From NCBI GenBank assembly GCA_010672925.1, contig JAAHFP010000002.1, positions 283,301 to 347,300 of the forward strand: DNA of 64,000 nt, written 5' to 3'. Numbering within the stretch: the stretch's first letter is position 1; every line of letters starts with the position of its first letter. The DNA is from Symploca sp. SIO1C2 (GTDB lineage: Bacteria; Cyanobacteriota; Cyanobacteriia; Cyanobacteriales; Coleofasciculaceae). Below, one piece after another: positions 55,098 to 64,000 of this stretch. The position numbers were made by a program, and so were the translations under genes. The notes under the pieces are model-generated. The model did not search any database, was not told the DNA's origin, and saw only the letters and a program-made list of their open reading frames with translations.

Positions 55098-56912
55098 TTA
55101 ATTTGCCCATCCTCCACAACGGTACAACTGATAGGGGACACCAATACGGTGGTGCTGAGTAGGATCCAGAGTGCAAGTTGTTTGATTGGCAACCAGAAGC
55201 TGGGGGGGATAGGCTGGTAGGATTAGTCCAGGGCCTACTACCCAAAGATTCTGAGGTGGCACTGGCAACTTGGGTAACTCAGATAATTTTTGCCAGACTA
55301 AATGATACCCTGGCTCTATCTTGAGGAAGGCAAAGTAAGTATCGGCATTAACTTCAGAAACAGTAGATTGCTGTCGCTCAATTGCCAGGGAAAAGCTCAA
55401 GCCTAAAGCAACCTCCTGCAAATTATGGTATCCCATCACCATCATCAGAGGAGCAGCTGGTTCTAGGTTCATATTCTGTGCTACTTGCTGGGGATGGAAG
55501 GGTTTGATAAACACCAAATTAGCGACTACTAAGCTACTACTCAATAAAGCAACACCCACCGGGATTAATTGTTTCCAGCTTCTGACTTGAAAGTAGGGAA
55601 CAGGGAACAGGGAATAGGGAACAGGAGTGCTCTTACTTTCATCACCTGGTAGTGAAAATTTTTTGTCATCGGGACTGCTTTCTGCCTTCTGCCTTCTGTC
55701 TTCTGCCTTCTGCCTCCTGCCTTCTGCCTCCTGCCTCTTGCCTTCTTGCACTAGACTGGCTCCTAGCAAAGCACAAACTGCTGGATAATAAACAAAATGA
55801 TACCTAAGTGCGATCGTAATATCCTTACCCAAGAAGTAGATAATCGCTACAAATTGTAATAGTACACAGAAAATAAAACCTAAAAGAGTAAGGGTAGCCA
55901 GATGAGTTTGAGGTTGCTGCCAGAGTTGCTTTACTCCCCGAAAAAATCTCCAGCCTAACCAACTACCAAACGCGAGGGTTAATAAAACAGAGGGTATCTG
56001 AATCCACAATGGCTGATTTTCTACCGGTAGAACAATCGCCATTGTCAGCCAAGCTACCAGGGTTTGGTAGAGAGGTACAACATGTTCCGGTTGTGGAAGC
56101 CAACTGGTTACTGGACTTCTGAAATCCTCCAACAAAATTGGCAGCCAAGGCAAATAGCTCACTACGACTCCTACTACCACTAACATTACCGACAACAAAC
56201 TACCCCTAGGTAACAATTTTCGTCGCCAGTACATAAGTCCGAGAAGAGTTAGTAACTGGGCAATAAAAGCTAGGAGAAAAAAATAGTGGACATAGCAACC
56301 AATGCTATTGAGCATTCCCCAAGACAACCAAATCAGCAATGGGGGCGGTTGCCGTCGGTAATAGAGATAATGCTGAATTAGCAATAATGCCAACAACGCC
56401 AAGGTAATTAATAGTACTGGTAGGGTATAGTGACGTGCTTCTTGGGAAAGATAAACGGCAAAAGGAGAAACTGCCATAAAAGCAGCTCCCATTAATCCCG
56501 CAGCTGGAGAAAATCCAAGGCGATTGAGACAGTAAATCCCTGGTATTACCATCACTCCGATTAAAGCTGGTAGCGATCGCATCTTCCAACTGAGGGATAT
56601 ATCTAATGGTTGAACCCAACTCAACCACTGATGCATTAAGCAAAAAAACAGAGGAGGATGGGTTGATTGAGTGGCAAGATTTTCCGCAATTGCAGTACAA
56701 TTGATATTTGGTTTGAAGGTAAAAATTGTCTCTAACATAGAGGGGGAAAATATTACCTCTAGAGGCAAATTATCATAACTCTGTCCTAGACTGAATAAAG
56801 TCGAAATTACTTCGTCTAACCAGAGTGGTTTCAAGTCCAGATGCCAAAATCTTAAGACTGCTCCCAAGGCAATCACGCTAATTAGCGTTAAGTAATGTTG
56901 GTATGGTTTCAT
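55098..56912 (-). CDS. Multispan glycosyltransferase (GT-C/PMT-like)
   Basis: 604 residues with about ten membrane helices. The N-terminal LRFWHLDLKPLWLDEVISTL has the Asp33-Glu34 pair in the first outer loop typical of GT-C enzymes such as GT39/GT83, which use polyprenyl-linked sugars. A low-complexity insert (EGKRQEAEGRRQKAEDRRQK, then KKFSLPGDESKSTPVPYSLF) near 55588-55750 is encoded by the dispersed repeat family and falls in a loop between two membrane segments. The sugar and acceptor are unknown. Start ATG 56912. Confidence 0.85.
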   Translation of the reverse strand: MKPYQHYLTLISVIALGAVLRFWHLDLKPLWLDEVISTLFSLGQSYDNLPLEVIFSPSMLETIFTFKPNINCTAIAENLATQSTHPPLFFCLMHQWLSWVQPLDISLSWKMRSLPALIGVMVIPGIYCLNRLGFSPAAGLMGAAFMAVSPFAVYLSQEARHYTLPVLLITLALLALLLIQHYLYYRRQPPPLLIWLSWGMLNSIGCYVHYFFLLAFIAQLLTLLGLMYWRRKLLPRGSLLSVMLVVVGVVVSYLPWLPILLEDFRSPVTSWLPQPEHVVPLYQTLVAWLTMAIVLPVENQPLWIQIPSVLLTLAFGSWLGWRFFRGVKQLWQQPQTHLATLTLLGFIFCVLLQFVAIIYFLGKDITIALRYHFVYYPAVCALLGASLVQEGKRQEAEGRRQKAEDRRQKAESSPDDKKFSLPGDESKSTPVPYSLFPVPYFQVRSWKQLIPVGVALLSSSLVVANLVFIKPFHPQQVAQNMNLEPAAPLMMVMGYHNLQEVALGLSFSLAIERQQSTVSEVNADTYFAFLKIEPGYHLVWQKLSELPKLPVPPQNLWVVGPGLILPAYPPQLLVANQTTCTLDPTQHHRIGVPYQLYRCGGWAN

Positions 56913-57164
56913 TGAGAAGGTCGAATGGGGAATGGGGAATGAGGAATAGAGAATAGGGAATTAATCCCAGTAATTCTGTGAAAAATCTTCTTTGTCCACT
57001 TTCTCACTTTCCTCCCTTGTCTTATCTTCACGGAAGTATTACAAACCTAAACCTCTTATGCTTCCTCGACTCTCTCTACTTGTGGGGTGTGACCCCACAC
57101 CCCGAAAAACGTAAAGGAAAATATTATTTCTTTACAGTAGATAAATTAAATTTGTTTTTATTCA

Positions 57165-57383
57165 ATGCAAGCTACAGTAAGTCTTATACCGGGCGCAATA
57201 TCCGAGCTATTTGCTCAAACCAGTAGTTCCGGTTGTATCACCCGTGCCGATCAATATGGATTAATGGCAGCAATGCTCGATGACTCCCTGACAGAAGACG
57301 AGAGAGCTGCTATAGATAGATTATTACGTGCTTGTCGCAGAGGGCGGATGAAGGTAGTTAATGAGCTTTCTACACTCTCTTGA
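57165..57383 (+). CDS. Small conserved cyanobacterial protein
   Basis: 72 residues; the pattern CITRADQYGLMAAMLDDSLT then EDERAAIDRLLRACRRGRMK is a conserved cyanobacterial small protein of unknown function, predicted helical and soluble. A GGTGTGACCCCACACCCC hairpin lies 65 bp upstream. The repeats after its stop codon are unrelated. No partner gene is evident. Confidence 0.8.
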   Translation: MQATVSLIPGAISELFAQTSSSGCITRADQYGLMAAMLDDSLTEDERAAIDRLLRACRRGRMKVVNELSTLS

Positions 57384-57470
57384 GTTGGCCGCGGTTTATC
57401 TGGAATAGCATTTACTGAATTAAGCTCTACTGAGGAGTGCTTCGTACCCCCCAATTAGATGGAAGAAACA

Positions 57471-57600
57471 ATTCTGTTGCCTGTTGCCCAATGGTGACAA
57501 GTTAAGAGCTTATGTGTTTGGTCAAATACTATATGTAGTGTTTGATAACTCAAAAAACCCTATGTAAGGAAAAGCCAAAGGGCAAAAAAAATTTATATTC
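57471..57600. repeat. Dispersed repeat GTTGCCTGTTGCCCAATGG family
   Basis: TGCCCAATGGTGACAAGTTA, TATGTAGTGTTTGATAAC and CCTATGTAAGGAAAAGCC match 46450-46590 in the same order at reduced identity. It is followed by three ATTCTCA units that run into the 3' end of the PfkB gene. Confidence 0.7.
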
Positions 57601-58479
57601 TCAATTCTCAATTCTCAATTCTCCATTTCCTTGCATCCACTGGCGAGTACCGAAAAATTGGCAGGAACGAGAAGCAACTTTGGTTGCAGCAATCAATGCG
57701 CTAGTAAAATTCTCCTCCAGAATGTAGTGGCAGAAAGCACCATGGAAAACGTCCCCCGCACCTAGGGTATCGACTGTAGTAATCGGAGGTATGGGTAACT
57801 CACCCGATTCTCCAAGGCTATAGTATCTAATCGGTTTATCCCCCTGAGTGATGGCAATATGAGGGATTCCAGCAGCGGTAAGATAACTAATTACCTCATC
57901 AGTGTTGTTACAACCCGGTGGATAAAAGTTAGCAGAGCAAATTGCGTAATCAACAAAAGGCAATACGGTATCAAATCCGGACTTCCAGCTGCCGCCATCA
58001 ATGACTACTGCAATCTTCTTGCTTTTCGCTAGCTGAGCGATCGCTTGTCCGACTGCCATTTGGTGGCCGTCAATCATTATTACATCAATTCCCGAGAGAA
58101 TGTCAAGAGGTAGTTGGTCACTGCCGACTTGGATTCTGGTAGCATTAAGGGAAATTACTGCGCGATCACCACTGCCTTGAGTCACCATAATTGAAGAGAC
58201 TGGGGGGGGTTCAGGGATAGTGGAGTCAAGGTCTACAATTCCCACCCGGTAAGTTGCCAAATCTTTTCTAATTAGTTCAGTGATTGGGTGATTGCCCACA
58301 ACTCCTACAATAGTTGCTGGATTACCCAAGTAACTAAAGGTTACTGCCGCATTGGTTGCCGGACCCCCTGCAGCGACTGTATAGTCAGAAGCTACTATCT
58401 TTTGGTTACTGCTGGGTAATTGGTCAGTGAGGTAAACCAAATCTAAGGTAACCATACCGACAAATAGACCATTATTCAT
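57601..58479 (-). CDS. PfkB-family sugar kinase
   Basis: 292 residues. N-terminal FVGMVTLDLVYLTDQLPSSN and the substrate-binding AGGPATNAAVTFSYLG; the PfkB signature 2 VDTLGAGDVFHGAFCHYI carries the catalytic Asp and the anion hole GAGD. It phosphorylates a sugar or nucleoside; substrate is unknown. The last dozen residues (GNGELRIEN) are encoded by the ATTCTCA repeat, so the natural stop seems to have been replaced. Confidence 0.9.
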   Translation of the reverse strand: MNNGLFVGMVTLDLVYLTDQLPSSNQKIVASDYTVAAGGPATNAAVTFSYLGNPATIVGVVGNHPITELIRKDLATYRVGIVDLDSTIPEPPPVSSIMVTQGSGDRAVISLNATRIQVGSDQLPLDILSGIDVIMIDGHQMAVGQAIAQLAKSKKIAVVIDGGSWKSGFDTVLPFVDYAICSANFYPPGCNNTDEVISYLTAAGIPHIAITQGDKPIRYYSLGESGELPIPPITTVDTLGAGDVFHGAFCHYILEENFTSALIAATKVASRSCQFFGTRQWMQGNGELRIEN

Positions 58480-58591
58480 CCAATCTTCTCACCGAGACAA
58501 CCCCAATTGAGTTGGGTGGGTTTTGATAGGGATATTTTGTTTACAATGGCTTAAATTATCCCTAAACCCGCCCCTACGATATGTGAATTCT

Positions 58592-58789
58592 CTATTCAGC
58601 TGTATGACCAACAGAGGTAACCATCTGTTTGATTGCCTCTTCAGATGCTTCAGTTTTAACGCTAATTACTTTTGTTGTTACATCCACTTCTACTTGAGCT
58701 TCCGGTTCCTTACTGAGGATTCCTTCAGTAATCGTCTTAGCACAGCCATCACAGGCAATACTAGGAACCTTGAATGTTATCGTTGCCAT
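58592..58789 (-). CDS. Heavy-metal-associated (HMA) domain protein
   Basis: 65 residues from ATG 58789 (MATITFKVPSIACDGCAKTI). The IACDGC site is a CxxC metal motif and the rest, EVDVTTKVISVKTEASEEAI, fits the ferredoxin-like HMA fold. Typical of copper chaperones (CopZ/Atx1). No P-type ATPase is adjacent; it sits 22 bp past the HNH gene stop on the same strand, so it may be cotranscribed. Confidence 0.9.
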   Translation of the reverse strand: MATITFKVPSIACDGCAKTITEGILSKEPEAQVEVDVTTKVISVKTEASEEAIKQMVTSVGHTAE

Positions 58790-58811
58790 AGTTAAATTTA
58801 TTCCCTTTACT

Positions 58812-59309
58812 TTAAACACCAATAACATACTTGCGCCATTCCTGATGTAGTCCACCTTTGACATGCTTAGCAACTTCAAAGTGGAGACTACTGTAAGGTT
58901 TACGGGGTTGAGTCCGTAGCATCATATCCGCCTCCTTAGGAGTGCGGTTACCTTTTTTTACATTACAGCGTACACAAGCAGTGACCATATTTTCCCAGGA
59001 ATCTCCCCCTTGGCGAGAACGAGGAATCACATGATCTAGGGTTAAATCATCACCGGTGTAACCACAGTATTGACAAGAGTGACCATCACGGTGGAGGATA
59101 TTTCTACGAGTAAGGGGAATTTCTTTGTAAGGCACTCGAACGTAGTGTCGCAGTCGTATGACTGTGGGCAGCGGAAACTCAGGATAGATATACTTCCCGT
59201 TGTGTTCAACATGCTCCGCCTTCCCTTTAAGCAACAAGACAACTGCTCGTCGCCAATTGGTAATATTTAGCGGTTCATAGGAAGCGTTTAATACCAAAAC
59301 CTTACCCAT
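58812..59309 (-). CDS. HNH endonuclease family protein
   Basis: 165 residues from ATG 59309 (MGKVLVLNASYEPLNITNWR), a family-typical start. The zinc/metal site is CQYCGYTGDDLTLDHVIPRS with HNH residues and a second CxxC in TACVRCNVKKGNRTP. The family is widespread in cyanobacteria as a single conserved gene; its substrate is unknown. Probably in one transcript with the HMA gene. Confidence 0.92.
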   Translation of the reverse strand: MGKVLVLNASYEPLNITNWRRAVVLLLKGKAEHVEHNGKYIYPEFPLPTVIRLRHYVRVPYKEIPLTRRNILHRDGHSCQYCGYTGDDLTLDHVIPRSRQGGDSWENMVTACVRCNVKKGNRTPKEADMMLRTQPRKPYSSLHFEVAKHVKGGLHQEWRKYVIGV

Positions 59310-59504
59310 GGTGCTCGCAATGATGAGAATCTTCCCAGATGGTAGCACAGTTAATTAAATCTCGCTGAGCTAGAGCTAGGGAGGAGGCTCTTTTGGTGAT
59401 GCGACCCAAGGGGTAAGGTGCAATATGAGGTGGGATTTATAGCCCATTGTTCAAAAAATTATAAGTACTCCTTTGTCTCTCTATCTCCCCACACTGCCTA
59501 CACC

Positions 59505-60146
59505 CTACCCCCTACTCCGCAAAGGTTCAGAAAGGGCTGCTGCTACTGCCTGAAGACATCTGTTATCTTTAAGCATCCAGGGATGGAGAAGAACCGGAAT
59601 CTCTACTTCTTTCCCTACCGGCATCTGAGAACTACTGGCGGGGAAAATCATCAAATCAAATCGAGTCCACATTCTAGTGAAGTTCAAACGTTCTAGCATT
59701 TGGTAGTCTCGATTCAAGTCCTGGAGAAATTCACTACCTGGGCGCATTTGCAGGCAGCCGATACGTGATAAGAGATAGGCTGTCCAAGTCCCATTATTGG
59801 GAGCAGAAATATTAATGTAGCGTTGTACTCGTTCAATACCCCCTAATCGTTGGATGTAGTAACGTGATACTAAAGCTCCCATACTAAAACCAACTAGATC
59901 TAGGGGTTGTTCAGGGTCAAAATTCCCAGCAATATAATCTGCTACTTGTTTGGCCAATTGGTCAAGACCTAGAGTGGCATCATTGGGGATTAAGTTTAAG
60001 CCATGTACGGACCAACCTCGCTCCTCTAGATAGGTAGACATCTTGCGAAAAACAGCTTTTGTGTTGCCAATACCATGAATCAGCAACACTTGATTGCGAT
60101 CGCTCTTGGTATCCCAACTGTTTTCGATTAGTCCTGGGTTAGACAT
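59505..60146 (-). CDS. Lipase/esterase-like alpha/beta hydrolase
   Basis: 213 residues: oxyanion region VLLIHGIGNTKAVFRKM, then the nucleophile elbow LVGFSMGALVSRYYIQRLGG. PNNGTWTAYLLSRIGCLQMR-like residues follow. Resembles the triacylglycerol-lipase/PGAP1-like group; substrate unknown. Most of the fold is present. The catalytic acid and His cannot be fixed by eye. Confidence 0.85.
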   Translation of the reverse strand: MSNPGLIENSWDTKSDRNQVLLIHGIGNTKAVFRKMSTYLEERGWSVHGLNLIPNDATLGLDQLAKQVADYIAGNFDPEQPLDLVGFSMGALVSRYYIQRLGGIERVQRYINISAPNNGTWTAYLLSRIGCLQMRPGSEFLQDLNRDYQMLERLNFTRMWTRFDLMIFPASSSQMPVGKEVEIPVLLHPWMLKDNRCLQAVAAALSEPLRSRG

Positions 60147-60465
60147 GGGCTTAGCGCTAAATATGAGATAATTGTTAATTAAGATAAATCATCTTTTGAG
60201 TTTTACTATCCTCACGAAGATAAATCATGCTATCCAAGGACTAATTATTAAAAAATATTAAGAATCATCTCTGAATCTTGCAATGAGCCGCAGTAAAAAA
60301 TCATAATTCAATCTGTCTATCAGTTTTGGAGCAGCTCGATCACACCTAAGCGGTCGTAGAAAAGTCCACCTCATAAATAACAGTCTTGTATCAAAGTTGG
60401 CATAACCCACTCCCATCTTTGGTGACCCAGTTAAACTTATCTAACAGTGCAGGAGTATTTTATCA
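60147..60465. other. AT-rich intergenic region without a gene
   Basis: 319 bp. Two direct copies of AAGATAAATCAT (about 60181 and 60219). Otherwise AT-rich with no gene, hairpin or terminator that I could support. Confidence 0.6.
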
Positions 60466-60957
60466 ATGCTTAATCCTCTTAAAAAGATTTTTAAAAAGCA
60501 GGAATTCTACTTAGAACTAGACGAATCTGAAACTGGAAAAGCTCAGTCTGAGGCTCCAGCTAAGCAGCCAGAAGCAGTTCAAGCTAAAGCTGTCAAACCT
60601 GCTAAGCAGCCAGAAGCAGTTCAAGCTAAAGCGGCTGAACCTGCTAAGCAGCCAGAAGCAGTTCAAGCTAAAGCGGTCAAACCTGCTAAGAAGAAAAAGC
60701 CATCGAAAGCCAAAGCTAAGGCTGCCGAACCGGTTAAGCAGCCAGAACCAGTTCAAGCAGTATTGACCCCAGAACAGCTAATTCAGGCAGCAGTAGCTTC
60801 TACAAATGGTAAGCCTAAAGTTGAGCCAGAACCGGAACAAACCTTTGCTGACCAAAATTTGCTTCCTCTGCCTACCAGTCCCCGTCGTCCTGGTCCTAGC
60901 ATGAATATGTTCCGGGATATGGCTCGTGGAGCTAAGATTCCTAAAACTGTTAAATAG
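60466..60957 (+). CDS. Hypothetical protein with 42-bp tandem repeats
   Basis: 163 residues. A conserved-looking start (MLNPLKKIFKKQEFYLELDE) and end (LLPLPTSPRRPGPSMNMF, ARGAKIPKTVK) flank a Lys/Ala/Glu/Pro-rich centre. In the DNA, three perfect-length 42-bp units (60559-60600, 60601-60642, 60643-60684) encode AKQPEAVQAKA(V/A)(K/E)P. It is predicted disordered and basic; I do not recognise a named family. Possibly nucleic-acid- or membrane-associated, but this is a guess. Confidence 0.7.
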   Translation: MLNPLKKIFKKQEFYLELDESETGKAQSEAPAKQPEAVQAKAVKPAKQPEAVQAKAAEPAKQPEAVQAKAVKPAKKKKPSKAKAKAAEPVKQPEPVQAVLTPEQLIQAAVASTNGKPKVEPEPEQTFADQNLLPLPTSPRRPGPSMNMFRDMARGAKIPKTVK

Positions 60958-61104
60958 GTGTTAGGTGTTAGGTAATGGTTTTGGGTAATTTTCCTTCTGG
61001 ACTTTCTACCTTCATTTCCATTGTGGCACTGGCATCCCCTGACAGTTTGCAACCTCAACCTTCTTAAAGTATTACCCTATCTGGGTTTGAAGGCTATTGT
61101 TTGA

Positions 61105-61291
61105 CTTTCATCTACACACCTCGGCAAATCGCTGAAACCCTATATTTTTCGTTGAGGTGTGTCGATGCCTTGCTGGGAGAAGGTTTGAGGAGTGTATTTT
61201 TTCTATTTTTGGGCAGGATTTGTTACTATAATGAGAGGTGTGTAGATTTGGTAGCTGAAACCCTTATTGGGTAAGGCTCCTCAGACGAACT
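61105..61291 (+). promoter_or_regulatory. CRISPR leader
   Basis: The stretch directly before the first CRISPR repeat contains paired GAGGTGTGT elements (about 61155 and 61234), an inverse ACACACCTC (about 61114), two GCTGAAACCCT copies (about 61130 and 61253) and a TATAAT at 61227-61232, some 60 bp before the array. This layout fits a cyanobacterial leader with promoter. The rest of 60958-61104 has TAGGTGT-type strings only. Confidence 0.6.
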
Positions 61292-61401
61292 CCCTACCGA
61301 CTGGGTTAAATCGGATTAGTTGGAAACACTAAGCAACATGCCGTATCTGCCTCTACATTGATAGACCCTACCGACTGGGTTAAATCGGATTAGTTGGAAA
61401 C
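61292..61401 (+). CRISPR. CRISPR array part 1: two identical 36-bp repeats
   Basis: Repeats at 61292-61327 and 61366-61401 are identical (CCCTACCGACTGGGTTAAAT, then CGGATTAGTTGGAAAC) with a 38-bp spacer at 61328-61365. A candidate second spacer of about 38 bp (61402-61440) follows and then the DUF4926 gene begins (its stop codon lies at 61442). No cas gene is in the window. The type cannot be fixed from the repeat alone. Confidence 0.8.
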
Positions 61402-61441
61402 TTCACGGCTTGTTCGGCTTCTTCATCGGAAACTTTGAAGC

Positions 61442-61702
61442 TTAACTTGCCATATCCAGTTCATAATGAACCGCCAAGATCTCATGAGCTTGTACAATTG
61501 CCATGGCATACTCACGCCCCTGCAAATCAGCAAATTCTACTAAATAGCTAGGCGACGTTCCCTCATAGATTTCTACAATAGTTCCAACCTGACCAATCGG
61601 TAACTGTTGAAGAGATTGATACTCAGACTCTAGAAGAGTTAATTTGTTGCTTGGAATTGGTTTCAAGTTAACAATGGTATCCAAGATGGTTAATTTTTCC
61701 AT
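61442..61702 (-). CDS. DUF4926 domain protein
   Basis: 86 residues: LTILDTIVNLKPIPSNKLTL, LPIGQVGTIVEIYEGTSPSY, LVEFADLQGREYAMAIVQAH and the end LAVHYELDMAS, the DUF4926 pattern (small beta-rich protein). It follows the DUF6883 gene on the same strand with a 5-bp gap, the common order of this pair. The family has been seen next to small toxin-like proteins; an antitoxin or immunity role is possible but not shown. The stop lies about 40 bp from a CRISPR repeat. Confidence 0.85.
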   Translation of the reverse strand: MEKLTILDTIVNLKPIPSNKLTLLESEYQSLQQLPIGQVGTIVEIYEGTSPSYLVEFADLQGREYAMAIVQAHEILAVHYELDMAS

Positions 61703-61707
61703 TTGCT

Positions 61708-62037
61708 TTATTTGATAAACGCTGAAACTAAACGAGGGTAGGGCCGGTTAGAGGTAATTTCCCAAAGGCTACGAAGAATAATGTCTTCATCGCTAGGAAC
61801 CGCCCAATCAACTTTGAATACTTGTCCAAACGCTGTATTATCTTGCTGAACGACTTCCCCTTCAATGGCAGATCTTGTGAGTAAGTCGTGCAACTCTTCA
61901 ACATTTTGAGCCGTAATCCCTAAAGCAGAAGCAAATACTCTGGCTTTATGCTTGCCAGAAGGGTGTTCGGGGTTCAAACAATAGCCAATCAGCTTCTCTA
62001 TAGGAATGATAGCGCGATCGCCATTTGGCAATTTCAT
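61708..62037 (-). CDS. DUF6883 domain protein
   Basis: 109 residues: MKLPNGDRAIIPIEKLIGYC, LNPEHPSGKHKARVFASALG, ITAQNVEELHDLLTRSAIEG, then QVFKVDWAV and SLWEITSNRPYPRL, fitting DUF6883. The KHKARVF segment is the conserved core. Members occur as small operons with DUF4926 and in polymorphic-toxin contexts, so a toxin-like role is possible. It is the first gene of the pair. The ATG at 62037 has HIP1-like GCGCGATCGCC nearby. Confidence 0.82.
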   Translation of the reverse strand: MKLPNGDRAIIPIEKLIGYCLNPEHPSGKHKARVFASALGITAQNVEELHDLLTRSAIEGEVVQQDNTAFGQVFKVDWAVPSDEDIILRSLWEITSNRPYPRLVSAFIK

Positions 62038-62091
62038 ATGTCCAATTGTTTAGCCAGTGGTCAATCTTATTTTCTATCTCTACCCATCTTA

Positions 62092-62119
62092 TATAGCAAT
62101 CGCCAAGGCGGTTAGGACA
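62092..62119. repeat. Solo end of the TATAGCA MITE
   Basis: TATAGCAATCGCCAAGGCGG and TTAGGACA match the 28-bp terminal inverted repeat of the MITEs at 15233 and 20416. The partner end is missing. GGAGCCTTGGAGCCTTCTGC strings follow. Confidence 0.8.
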
Positions 62120-62221
62120 ATAACCAAATGCTGAAACCTTTAACTGTAAACCTCTTCCCTTGGAGCCTTGGAGCCTTCTGCCCTCTGCCTTTTGCTATAA
62201 ATAAAAGAAGCACTTCCAACC

Positions 62222-62327
62222 CCCTACCGATAGGGTTAAATCAGATTAGTTGGAAACATTTGAGTTGCTTTCATCCCATCAAAGTTGTCCACCCTACCGA
62301 TAAGGTTAAATTAGATTAGCTGGAAAC
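62222..62327 (+). CRISPR. CRISPR array part 2: two diverged 36-bp repeats
   Basis: Repeats at 62222-62257 and 62292-62327 have the same length and ends (CCCTACCGAT and TTAG-TGGAAAC) as part 1 but differ from it and from each other at several positions, as is usual at the leader-far end of an array. Spacer 62258-62291 (34 bp). Together with part 1 this suggests one array split by about 0.8 kb. Following it to 62418 are AACAAGGGGCTTAAGC-like and GGCAAGATATTAGTACCAC strings but no gene. Confidence 0.7.
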
Positions 62328-62418
62328 CGGTGAAACAAGGGGCTTAAGCCTCTTGCCTTGTGCTAATAGTAAACCTGTACTGGCAAGATATTAGTACCAC
62401 AATTGATGCATTTAGAAT

Positions 62419-63537
62419 TCACCCAGGACTATTTTTGAGGAAAACCAACCCACTGTATAACTGAAATGCCGGGTCCCAAGGTGTTGGTTCCCAGCGAGAC
62501 AAGTTGATGCAGGATGGCAGATGTCCTAACATATCCGGGTAGTCGATCGCAGTATTAGCAAAAGTAGTAAAATCAGACCAAATGGGGAGATCCGGTAATT
62601 TACTGTTAAGGAACTCTAGTAAACTGTTCCATTTGCTTCTAGTAGTTCCTTGCTTGAGAGTAAGTTCCGGTAAACCCTTAGCCTGAGAGTGGGAATGTAG
62701 GGAGTCAAGAGCAATTCCCTGCTGAAATTGATAGTGGCGATCGCATAAGCGAATAATACAGTTTCTAGAGGACAAATGTAAGTCACAAAACTGGGCATAG
62801 TCCAGGGTTTTGGTTTTCCGCTGTAATTTGCGACGCACATCCATATCAACAACTTCTTCAAACAGCGGCAGTAATCCTTCCACTCTTTGAGAAACTTCAG
62901 ACCAATCAAAAGTCAGGGAACCCAACTGTTCTTGGGAGTTACGGCAAACAACAGTAGTTCCTTCGTAACTGATTTCCGAAAAATAATTGAGGCTAAAAAC
63001 ATTAATTTTCCGAATATCCGCTAAAGCAGCACAAAAGCAGGGAATCTCTGCCTGACGCAGCGACGAGGCATAAAATTCTAATTTTCCCACAGCCCCTGTA
63101 CGATACAGACGCCAACCCCTACTAGGTAGCTGCAAGCGAGCACTGTAAGGATCTAGCTGCATGATCTGGGCAAATTTTTGAGCCGCAGCCTGTTTGACTT
63201 CCGCAGCAACAGCTTCCAGAACAAAAACCCCTAATTCCTGACTGCCGGGAGTAGCAGTTGCCTGAGCAAGGGCTTGCTGGCGTTGTTCTTGCTCTCTTGC
63301 TTGCAAGCGCCCTAATCCCTGACGTGCCTGGGACATAATCTTAGGATTAGTCGTATTTTTGAGTAACTGTCGATAGTTCTCTTCCGCTGCTTCCAGCTTA
63401 TTAGTTTCCTCATATAAGCGTCCCAGATAGAGCCTCACCCAAGGGTTATCTGGCTCATCTCGCAGCAGCTGTTTAAGTAATCGAGCAGCTGTTTTATACT
63501 CCTTGCGCTTCAAAGCATCCGCAACTTCGTCAATCAT
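62419..63537 (-). CDS. Tetratricopeptide-repeat protein
   Basis: 372 residues. N-terminal TPR-like helices (5-80: ALKRKEYKTAARLLKQLLRD, PDNPWVRLYLGRLYEETNKL, EAAEENYRQLLKNT), a Gln/Arg-rich segment, then about 280 residues of a conserved cyanobacterial domain (YSARLQLPSRGWRLYRTGAV, IPCFCAALADIRKINVFSLN, SSRNCIIRLCDRHYQFQQGI) with unknown role. No membrane segment. It lies 37 bp downstream of rsmE on the same strand and may share its transcript. Confidence 0.8.
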   Translation of the reverse strand: MIDEVADALKRKEYKTAARLLKQLLRDEPDNPWVRLYLGRLYEETNKLEAAEENYRQLLKNTTNPKIMSQARQGLGRLQAREQEQRQQALAQATATPGSQELGVFVLEAVAAEVKQAAAQKFAQIMQLDPYSARLQLPSRGWRLYRTGAVGKLEFYASSLRQAEIPCFCAALADIRKINVFSLNYFSEISYEGTTVVCRNSQEQLGSLTFDWSEVSQRVEGLLPLFEEVVDMDVRRKLQRKTKTLDYAQFCDLHLSSRNCIIRLCDRHYQFQQGIALDSLHSHSQAKGLPELTLKQGTTRSKWNSLLEFLNSKLPDLPIWSDFTTFANTAIDYPDMLGHLPSCINLSRWEPTPWDPAFQLYSGLVFLKNSPG

Positions 63538-63573
63538 GTTATTTGTTATTTGTTGTTTGTTATTTGTTATTTG

Positions 63574-64000
63574 TTATTGGTTGTTTAATGCAGAAACTAA
63601 GGACATAGCAACAATAGGAGCGGTAATAGCTCGAAGAATGCGATTGCCTAGAGAAACTGGCTGGAATTTAGCTGCGGTGGCTTGCTCTACCTCCGCTACT
63701 GTCCAACCACCTTCAGGTCCTGTAGCCACTACTATTGATAGAGGCTGATGGTGGTGAGGTGGAACAGTTTCCCTATTTAATAAACAATTTAGGAGATCAG
63801 GAGCATCGCCACGGGCTACACAAATATAACGATAAGCATTGGGAGTATCCGTTAGTTGGATAGCAGTAGTAAAGTCCACTGGCTCCCAAACCGTTGGTAC
63901 TATTTGACGCTCCGATTGCTCTGCTGCTTCTTGAGTGAGCCGTCGCCAACGTTCAAGCTTCCGGTGACTGGGATTAAGTAAGGTGTGATCGCTCTTCACT
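63574..64000 (-). CDS. rsmE: 16S rRNA (uracil-N3)-methyltransferase RsmE, N-terminus off the window
   Basis: The visible 142 codons hold the SPOUT-knot domain: RRLTQEAAEQSERQIVPTVW, VVATGPEGGWTVAEVEQATA and the knot SLGNRILRAITAPIVAMSLV. RsmE methylates U1498 of 16S rRNA. The N-terminal PUA-like domain lies beyond the right edge, so a Met near 63999 is not the start. The C-terminus is complete. The TPR gene follows 37 bp downstream, separated by an AAC-type string. Confidence 0.9.
   Translation of the reverse strand, partial: VKSDHTLLNPSHRKLERWRRLTQEAAEQSERQIVPTVWEPVDFTTAIQLTDTPNAYRYICVARGDAPDLLNCLLNRETVPPHHHQPLSIVVATGPEGGWTVAEVEQATAAKFQPVSLGNRILRAITAPIVAMSLVSALNNQ

Follow-up and report, generated by a model that had tools for sequence, protein, structure and literature searches.

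An orphan CRISPR array split by a DUF6883-DUF4926 gene pair in Symploca sp. SIO1C2

How a CRISPR array without cas genes came to be divided by two small protein-coding genes, and whether those genes have anything to do with CRISPR, are the questions raised by a locus of Symploca sp. SIO1C2. The locus lies in the window, which is the whole 64,000-nucleotide stretch of DNA that was analyzed. The original prediction for this region had described two repeats with a leader and two diverged repeats flanking a pair of small genes on the opposite strand, and the coordinates, the Pfam matches and the leader family all confirm that description. The CRISPR locus is real, and so is its division by a DUF6883-DUF4926 operon encoded on the other strand. 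It is fairly probable that the arrangement came about when a toxin-antitoxin-like cassette entered an orphan type III-B-like array that had been gained in this organism's own lineage, and that the pair is an ordinary module of the toxin-antitoxin (TA) type.

All four repeats are of one kind and share one orientation, on the plus strand, on both sides of the gene pair. Repeat R1 (61292-61327, 36 nt) and repeat R2 (61366-61401) are identical, and the diverged repeats R3 (62222-62257) and R4 (62292-62327) show three and six differences from R1, respectively. Spacer S1 (61328-61365, 38 nt) separates R1 from R2, and spacer S3 (62258-62291, 34 nt) separates R3 from R4, such that there are two units, each made of two near-identical repeats around a unique spacer, and the two spacers are alike in length. 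A control search of the same genome with the reversed repeat pattern returned no matches. Between R2 and the stop codon of DUF4926 lie 40 nt (61402-61441, plus strand), which would mark the left edge of the inserted stretch and are probably a third spacer, S2, or a remnant of one, given a length similar to the 38 and 34 nt of the other two.

The two genes follow on the minus strand. The gene for the DUF4926 protein (61442-61702, 86 aa) matches its Pfam family above the cut-off with E 5.7e-12, and the gene for the DUF6883 protein (61708-62037, 109 aa) does so with E 3.4e-25. Between the start of the DUF6883 gene and R3 lies an interspersed, MITE-like repeat of about 113 bp (62090-62202) with further copies in the same genome. 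Among the best 40 of 347 candidates scored, and leaving aside the element itself, these copies are 81-94% identical to it over most or part of its length. A search with Rfam over positions 56000-64000 gave no match. A five-base direct repeat was seen by eye at the possible edges of the insertion, for which chance suffices as an explanation.

Two further observations concern the surroundings and the repeat itself. The neighboring gene at 60466-60957, for which there is no Pfam match, contains imperfect 42-bp tandem repeats encoding a stretch rich in Ala, Lys, Pro, Gln and Glu. Also, lone copies or 3' parts of the R1-type repeat occur without a leader at three other places in the genome (L003 1501-1525 on C169, L005 1490-1525 on C235, and L006 near 1500-1536 on C157), and at L003 a small open reading frame (ORF) beginning MIISNVKISPDSQEILLKAAAKK follows within 150 bp of the lone repeat.

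The array begins behind a CRISPR leader on the plus strand (about 61060-61291, with an approximate upstream limit), which belongs to a conserved family with strongly conserved blocks. This family is represented by 35 distinct copies in the fetched loci, the one in the window included. Thirty of the copies meet a repeat, 29 of them at exactly the same base and one displaced by a single base, and the other five meet none. The repeat is of the window type in 16 of these 30 cases, of a second family (CTTCCCACT...) in 12, and of a third in two, and one genome (G003, locus L045) has two leaders about 580 bp apart, one for the first and one for the second repeat family. A promoter in the leader, which the original prediction had assumed, was not confirmed, in that a scan of 61000-62450 for the sigma-70 consensus found two sites, neither within the leader, against 3.2 expected. 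Elsewhere in the same genome there is a leader fragment without repeats (C1:122758-122901, L253), which is presumably a relic of another array. In a genome of the same genus (G002), short arrays of the window repeat are numerous; they lie on different contigs (C1273, C499, C506, C1150, C1217 and C1350), and every one of them follows a leader of this family.

The repeat also forms much longer arrays in the family. A pattern search found it within two mismatches in nine of 20 family genomes, including the present one, and arrays of 13, 23, 21, 9, 12, 19, 8, 9, 16 and 14 copies were seen in loci from six genomes (G013, G014, G003, G012, G005 and G011). The stretches fetched around window-repeat arrays contain a Cmr4-like gene in G013, G012 and G005, and cas1 in G013, G005 and G011. 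With arrays of up to 23 copies, and cmr4-like or cas1 genes near them in four genomes, the repeats do have the CRISPR relatives on which the original prediction depended. In the module of G013, Cas1 scores above its NCBIfam cut-off, Cmr4 (E 8.6e-24) just below and Cmr6 weaker still, and because of these scores the repeat family is called only type III-B-like here. A gene for a group II-type reverse transcriptase adjoins cas1 in that module, and three more of its ORFs (148, 359 and 560 aa) have no NCBIfam match.

As far as the assembly shows (97.9% complete, in 245 contigs), the array in the window is an orphan. Neither Cas1 (PF01867) nor RAMP proteins (PF03787) were matched within the window in genome-wide profile searches, which bears out the view of this as a CRISPR locus without cas1 or RAMP genes of its own. 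The check that the original prediction proposed, for cas genes with the same repeat elsewhere in the genome, turned up none by these two profiles. Cas1 occurs just twice, in a type I-D locus about 65 kb away on the same contig and beside a III-B module on contig C135, each with a repeat of its own that is unlike that of the window, and RAMP proteins occur only on C135 (III-B) and C172 (III-D). The III-D module (C172:39706-47994, or L252 5706-13994) consists of Csx10, Csx7 and a Cmr2-like Cas10, and no array was found in the 19 kb around it. The Cas1 of C135 is 36% identical to that of G013, the cas ORFs of G013 have no match on C172, and a cas1 gene or cmr set matching those of the window repeat's relatives was not found in the genome. 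The arrays on C135 have a leader of the same family as the window array and a different repeat, and thus help in trans would be conceivable for adaptation and less so for processing. Overall, the window array shares its 36-nt repeat and its leader with the relatives' arrays near cmr4-like and cas1 genes, and differs from other orphan type III-B-like cyanobacterial arrays in having only two plus two repeats, split by two genes, with no matching cas1 or cmr set found in the genome.

Useful clues regarding the origin of the block come from its flanks. Clear orthologues of the TPR gene downstream (62419-63537) exist in seven family genomes, and the sequence around each of them was examined. In five of these (G001, of the same genus, G011, G005, G010 and G008), the orthologue is adjoined, at about 30-200 bp, by the gene that lies upstream of the locus in the window (60466-60957). 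Another gene stands beside the TPR gene in the nearest-related genome (G002) and in G009, which makes these two uninformative. Neither the leader nor the pair has a match in any of the seven stretches, and every word of theirs differs from the repeat at 15 or more of its 36 positions. Because the two neighbors are adjacent in five of the seven relatives without leader, repeat or pair, the block from the leader to R4 is most likely a gain in the present lineage; the alternative is that it was lost in five lineages instead of gained in one. Among the genomes searched, no strain was found in which the array is intact and the pair is absent, so the order in which array and pair arrived can only be proposed.

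The pair itself is a conserved two-gene unit. The eighty best of 255 confirmed relatives were fetched, and two of them (L183 and L223) were too short for gene order to be evaluated. A DUF6883 gene followed by a DUF4926 gene on the same strand was found in 77 of the remaining 78, the exception being L207, and this order is maintained across distant genomes in the manner of a toxin-antitoxin or toxin-immunity unit. In one genome (G017, L119), a 433-aa protein ending in DUF6883 is followed by two DUF4926 genes, which by analogy is the layout of a polymorphic toxin with its immunity genes. The closest DUF6883 proteins of the genomes G001 and G002 in the genus are distant (36-44% identity for those compared), and for this reason the pair was likely acquired by transfer. 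DUF4926 fragments also occur near an intact pair, at L100 567-653 and L028 425-544 as well as in L194 and L204, and an additional DUF4926 match lies within 3 kb in seven of the 78 loci, three of which (L201, L209 and L210) have it at the edge of the pair, where it may be the same gene.

Existing resources offer few hints regarding function. PADLOC and PHROGs returned nothing for the pair, with weak PADLOC matches confined to the TPR protein, and no relatives of DUF6883 were found in viral contigs. No paper on DUF6883 was found in the literature searched, and DUF4926 is mentioned in one paper, among the domains listed for a viral contig in a study of Planktothrix phages (PMC10343443).

Structure prediction was more revealing. 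From six DUF6883 sequences, AlphaFold2 produced five models with mean pLDDT values of 86.5, 74.9, 72.2, 54.9 and 44.6, of which only one is good. The best four chains retrieved by Foldseek for the DUF6883 model all belong to 6CP9, a contact-dependent inhibition (CDI) toxin-immunity complex (E 0.002-0.006), and VIA-align 2 aligned the model with the CdiA-CT Kp342 toxin of that entry over 99 residues (Z 10.3, rmsd 2.6, 12% identity). The next matches were EC3006 CdiA (Z 6.3), BrnT (5.7), a Serratia CDI protein (5.2) and RelE (4.8). A comparison of the DUF6883 sequence profile with solved toxins gave no match. Many clades of BECR toxins have been described (PMC3482391), and Kp342 is a BECR tRNase with the residues K157, Y160, H170, R252 and T255 (PMC9086364). 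The alignment runs from residue 9 of DUF6883 (151 of Kp342) to residue 109 (259). Judged from these end points only, and if the ends are free of gaps, K15, R102 and S105 would be the counterparts of K157, R252 and T255, respectively. All six DUF6883 sequences have K15 and R102, and they carry S or T at position 105.

From this model, DUF6883 likely has the BECR ribonuclease fold and is probably a toxin, and catalysis as a ribonuclease is plausible. It would resemble the CDI tRNases Kp342 and EC3006 in predicted fold, with the same order of helices and then four strands, at 12% identity; unlike them, DUF6883 is a stand-alone gene of 109 aa rather than the tail of a secreted CdiA. The DUF4926 protein is predicted with good confidence (pLDDT 91.7) to be a small, SH3-like beta-barrel. 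Many similar barrels were retrieved and none stands out (best Z 7.8), so no function is drawn from this model; DUF4926 is presumed to be the antitoxin or immunity protein that neutralizes DUF6883. The pair parallels type II TA systems, of which BrnT and RelE are toxins matched by the DUF6883 model, in comprising two small genes of fixed order, but differs in that the toxin gene comes first and the presumed antitoxin is a predicted barrel rather than a DNA-binding protein. Thus, with a conserved gene order and a predicted BECR fold, the pair looks like a toxin and its neutralizer, which lends support to the original view that a toxin/antitoxin-like unit interrupts the array.

A bond between the pair and CRISPR would be expected to leave traces in other genomes. 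Of the fetched pair relatives, again the top-ranking 80 of 255, two have an array of at least three repeats: L168, at a distance of 736 nt from the pair, and L177, at 6.5 kb. This corresponds to two arrays in 1,072,400 bases, or about one per 536 kb, and a single close case among 80 is roughly what such a density yields, so there is no sign of CRISPR enrichment near the pair in these sequences. A second split array, with CRISPR-type repeats on both sides of the pair, was not found in any of the 78 loci where it could have been recognized. Direct repeats of 22-60 nt do lie on both sides in 15 of these 78; on inspection by eye they were taken for dispersed repeats, GCGATCGC-rich or otherwise, and in no case did they show CRISPR-like regular spacing. 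A search for DUF6883 in the family genomes listed 31 matches, one of which (L102) is the window itself; among the 30 loci fetched, only L100, which comes from the record of L168, contained a further array, and the k-mer signal of L116 came from a repeat of the GCGATCGC type.

The strongest point for a CRISPR link, as far as these comparisons go, is L168 (contig C1057 of G010, also L100 and L135). It holds the second closest homologue of the pair (65% and 58% identity), located 736 nt past the final repeat of an array that has a cas1 hit on its upstream side, and in the same relative orientation as in the window. The repeat of that array has a different sequence from the window repeat.

The spacers provide no clearer indication. 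Exact 22-nt cores of S1, S2 and S3 had no matches in viral contigs. In blastn searches against phages, the left repeat-spacer unit had no match and the right unit had one weak match (E 0.4) that covers the repeat end and part of S3. Against plasmids, the left unit matched arrays of other cyanobacteria by way of the repeat, and three Rhizobium plasmid records that share the same 22 bases of S2 (E 0.4) were taken as chance. The longest words common to the three spacers and the pair region (61442-62221) measure 8, 9 and 9 nt, lengths that 49%, 18% and 10% of shuffles also attain, and the stretch after R4 gives an ungapped score against that region that is reached by 5% of shuffles, one result among many tests. 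Words shared between the spacers and the leader flank or the I-D, III-B and III-D loci are within the range of shuffled spacers. Since the pair nearly always lies away from CRISPR arrays elsewhere (one of 80 relatives has an array within 1 kb, and the 78 loci hold no second split array), and the spacers show no match to the pair beyond chance, the proposal that the pair profits from, depends on or protects CRISPR gained no support, and the pair hardly belongs with CRISPR by these measures.

Several other histories might nevertheless be considered. The pair and the tail of the array could have traveled together, the middle of the array being replaced when repeats recombined or when an array end was transferred with the pair already next to it. 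The differences of R3 and R4 from R1 and R2 are what such an exchange would leave, and in G010 a close homologue of the pair lies near an array in the same orientation. However, decay of trailing repeats is common in CRISPR arrays, and would explain R3 and R4 without any exchange; furthermore, the array in G010 has another repeat and is the single such case among 80 relatives. Joint travel is possible on this evidence, but rather unlikely. It is far harder to accept that the 820 bp between R2 and R3 are one giant spacer integrated by Cas1-Cas2, an idea with almost no probability even though the two repeats bound the stretch directly. All spacers here measure 34-40 nt, the repeat is copied at integration whereas R2 and R3 differ, and the stretch also contains a dispersed repeat element.

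The remaining possibilities would give the pair a role in CRISPR. In CreTA, toxin and antitoxin are CRISPR-regulated RNAs that use Cascade and a linked locus, and one or two degenerate, ectopic repeats are involved (PMC9458426). A guard module of this kind would employ a crRNA-like RNA from the diverged repeats to restrain DUF6883, and loss of Cas would release the toxin. The window does resemble CreTA in placing a toxin-like element next to one or two diverged repeats that are not part of a full array, since R3 and R4, with the 34-nt spacer, stand immediately upstream of the two genes, and DUF6883 is probably a toxin by its predicted fold. But CreTA toxins are RNAs under Cascade control, whereas the window holds protein genes and a type III-like repeat. 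In addition, no spacer-like part matches the stretch with the toxin's promoter region (61442-62221) better than shuffles do, and no linked Cascade genes are present, the nearest Cas1 or RAMP gene found on the contig being that of the type I-D locus at about 65 kb, with another repeat. Elsewhere the pair also does without CRISPR and has its own DUF4926 partner. A guard function is thus improbable. A more adventurous version holds that the insertion was adaptive, and that type III machinery from another contig, guided by crRNA, restrains or senses the pair, which lies opposite the array strand and directly downstream of R3 and R4. The pair would then be a protein-toxin counterpart of CreTA with G010 as a second case, but the chances that this is correct are very small.

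Insertion of a TA-like cassette into a newly gained array is the reading that best accommodates these observations. A short orphan type III-B-like array, with an intact-looking leader of its own, would have been gained between two conserved genes. The DUF6883-DUF4926 cassette would have landed later inside this array, next to or within a spacer, with the dispersed element beside it. The first repeats near the leader would have stayed identical while the two distal repeats decayed. The pair might persist as a selfish or defensive TA-type module in which DUF6883, judging from fold and operon structure, would cut RNA, perhaps tRNA, whenever DUF4926 runs short. The array may still yield a few crRNAs for type III machinery elsewhere in the genome.

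In the titles and abstract openings of the literature on genes inside arrays, on orphan arrays and on TA systems in cyanobacteria, no such arrangement was found. Should the pair prove to be controlled by CRISPR after all, CRISPR addiction would be extended to protein toxins and to type III systems. A wider by-product of the analysis is the prediction, made from the structural model, that the widespread DUF6883 is a BECR-fold ribonuclease toxin and that DUF4926 is its partner. The locus would illustrate how, in the large genomes of cyanobacteria, orphan arrays that have a leader are acquired and later fragmented by small mobile cassettes.
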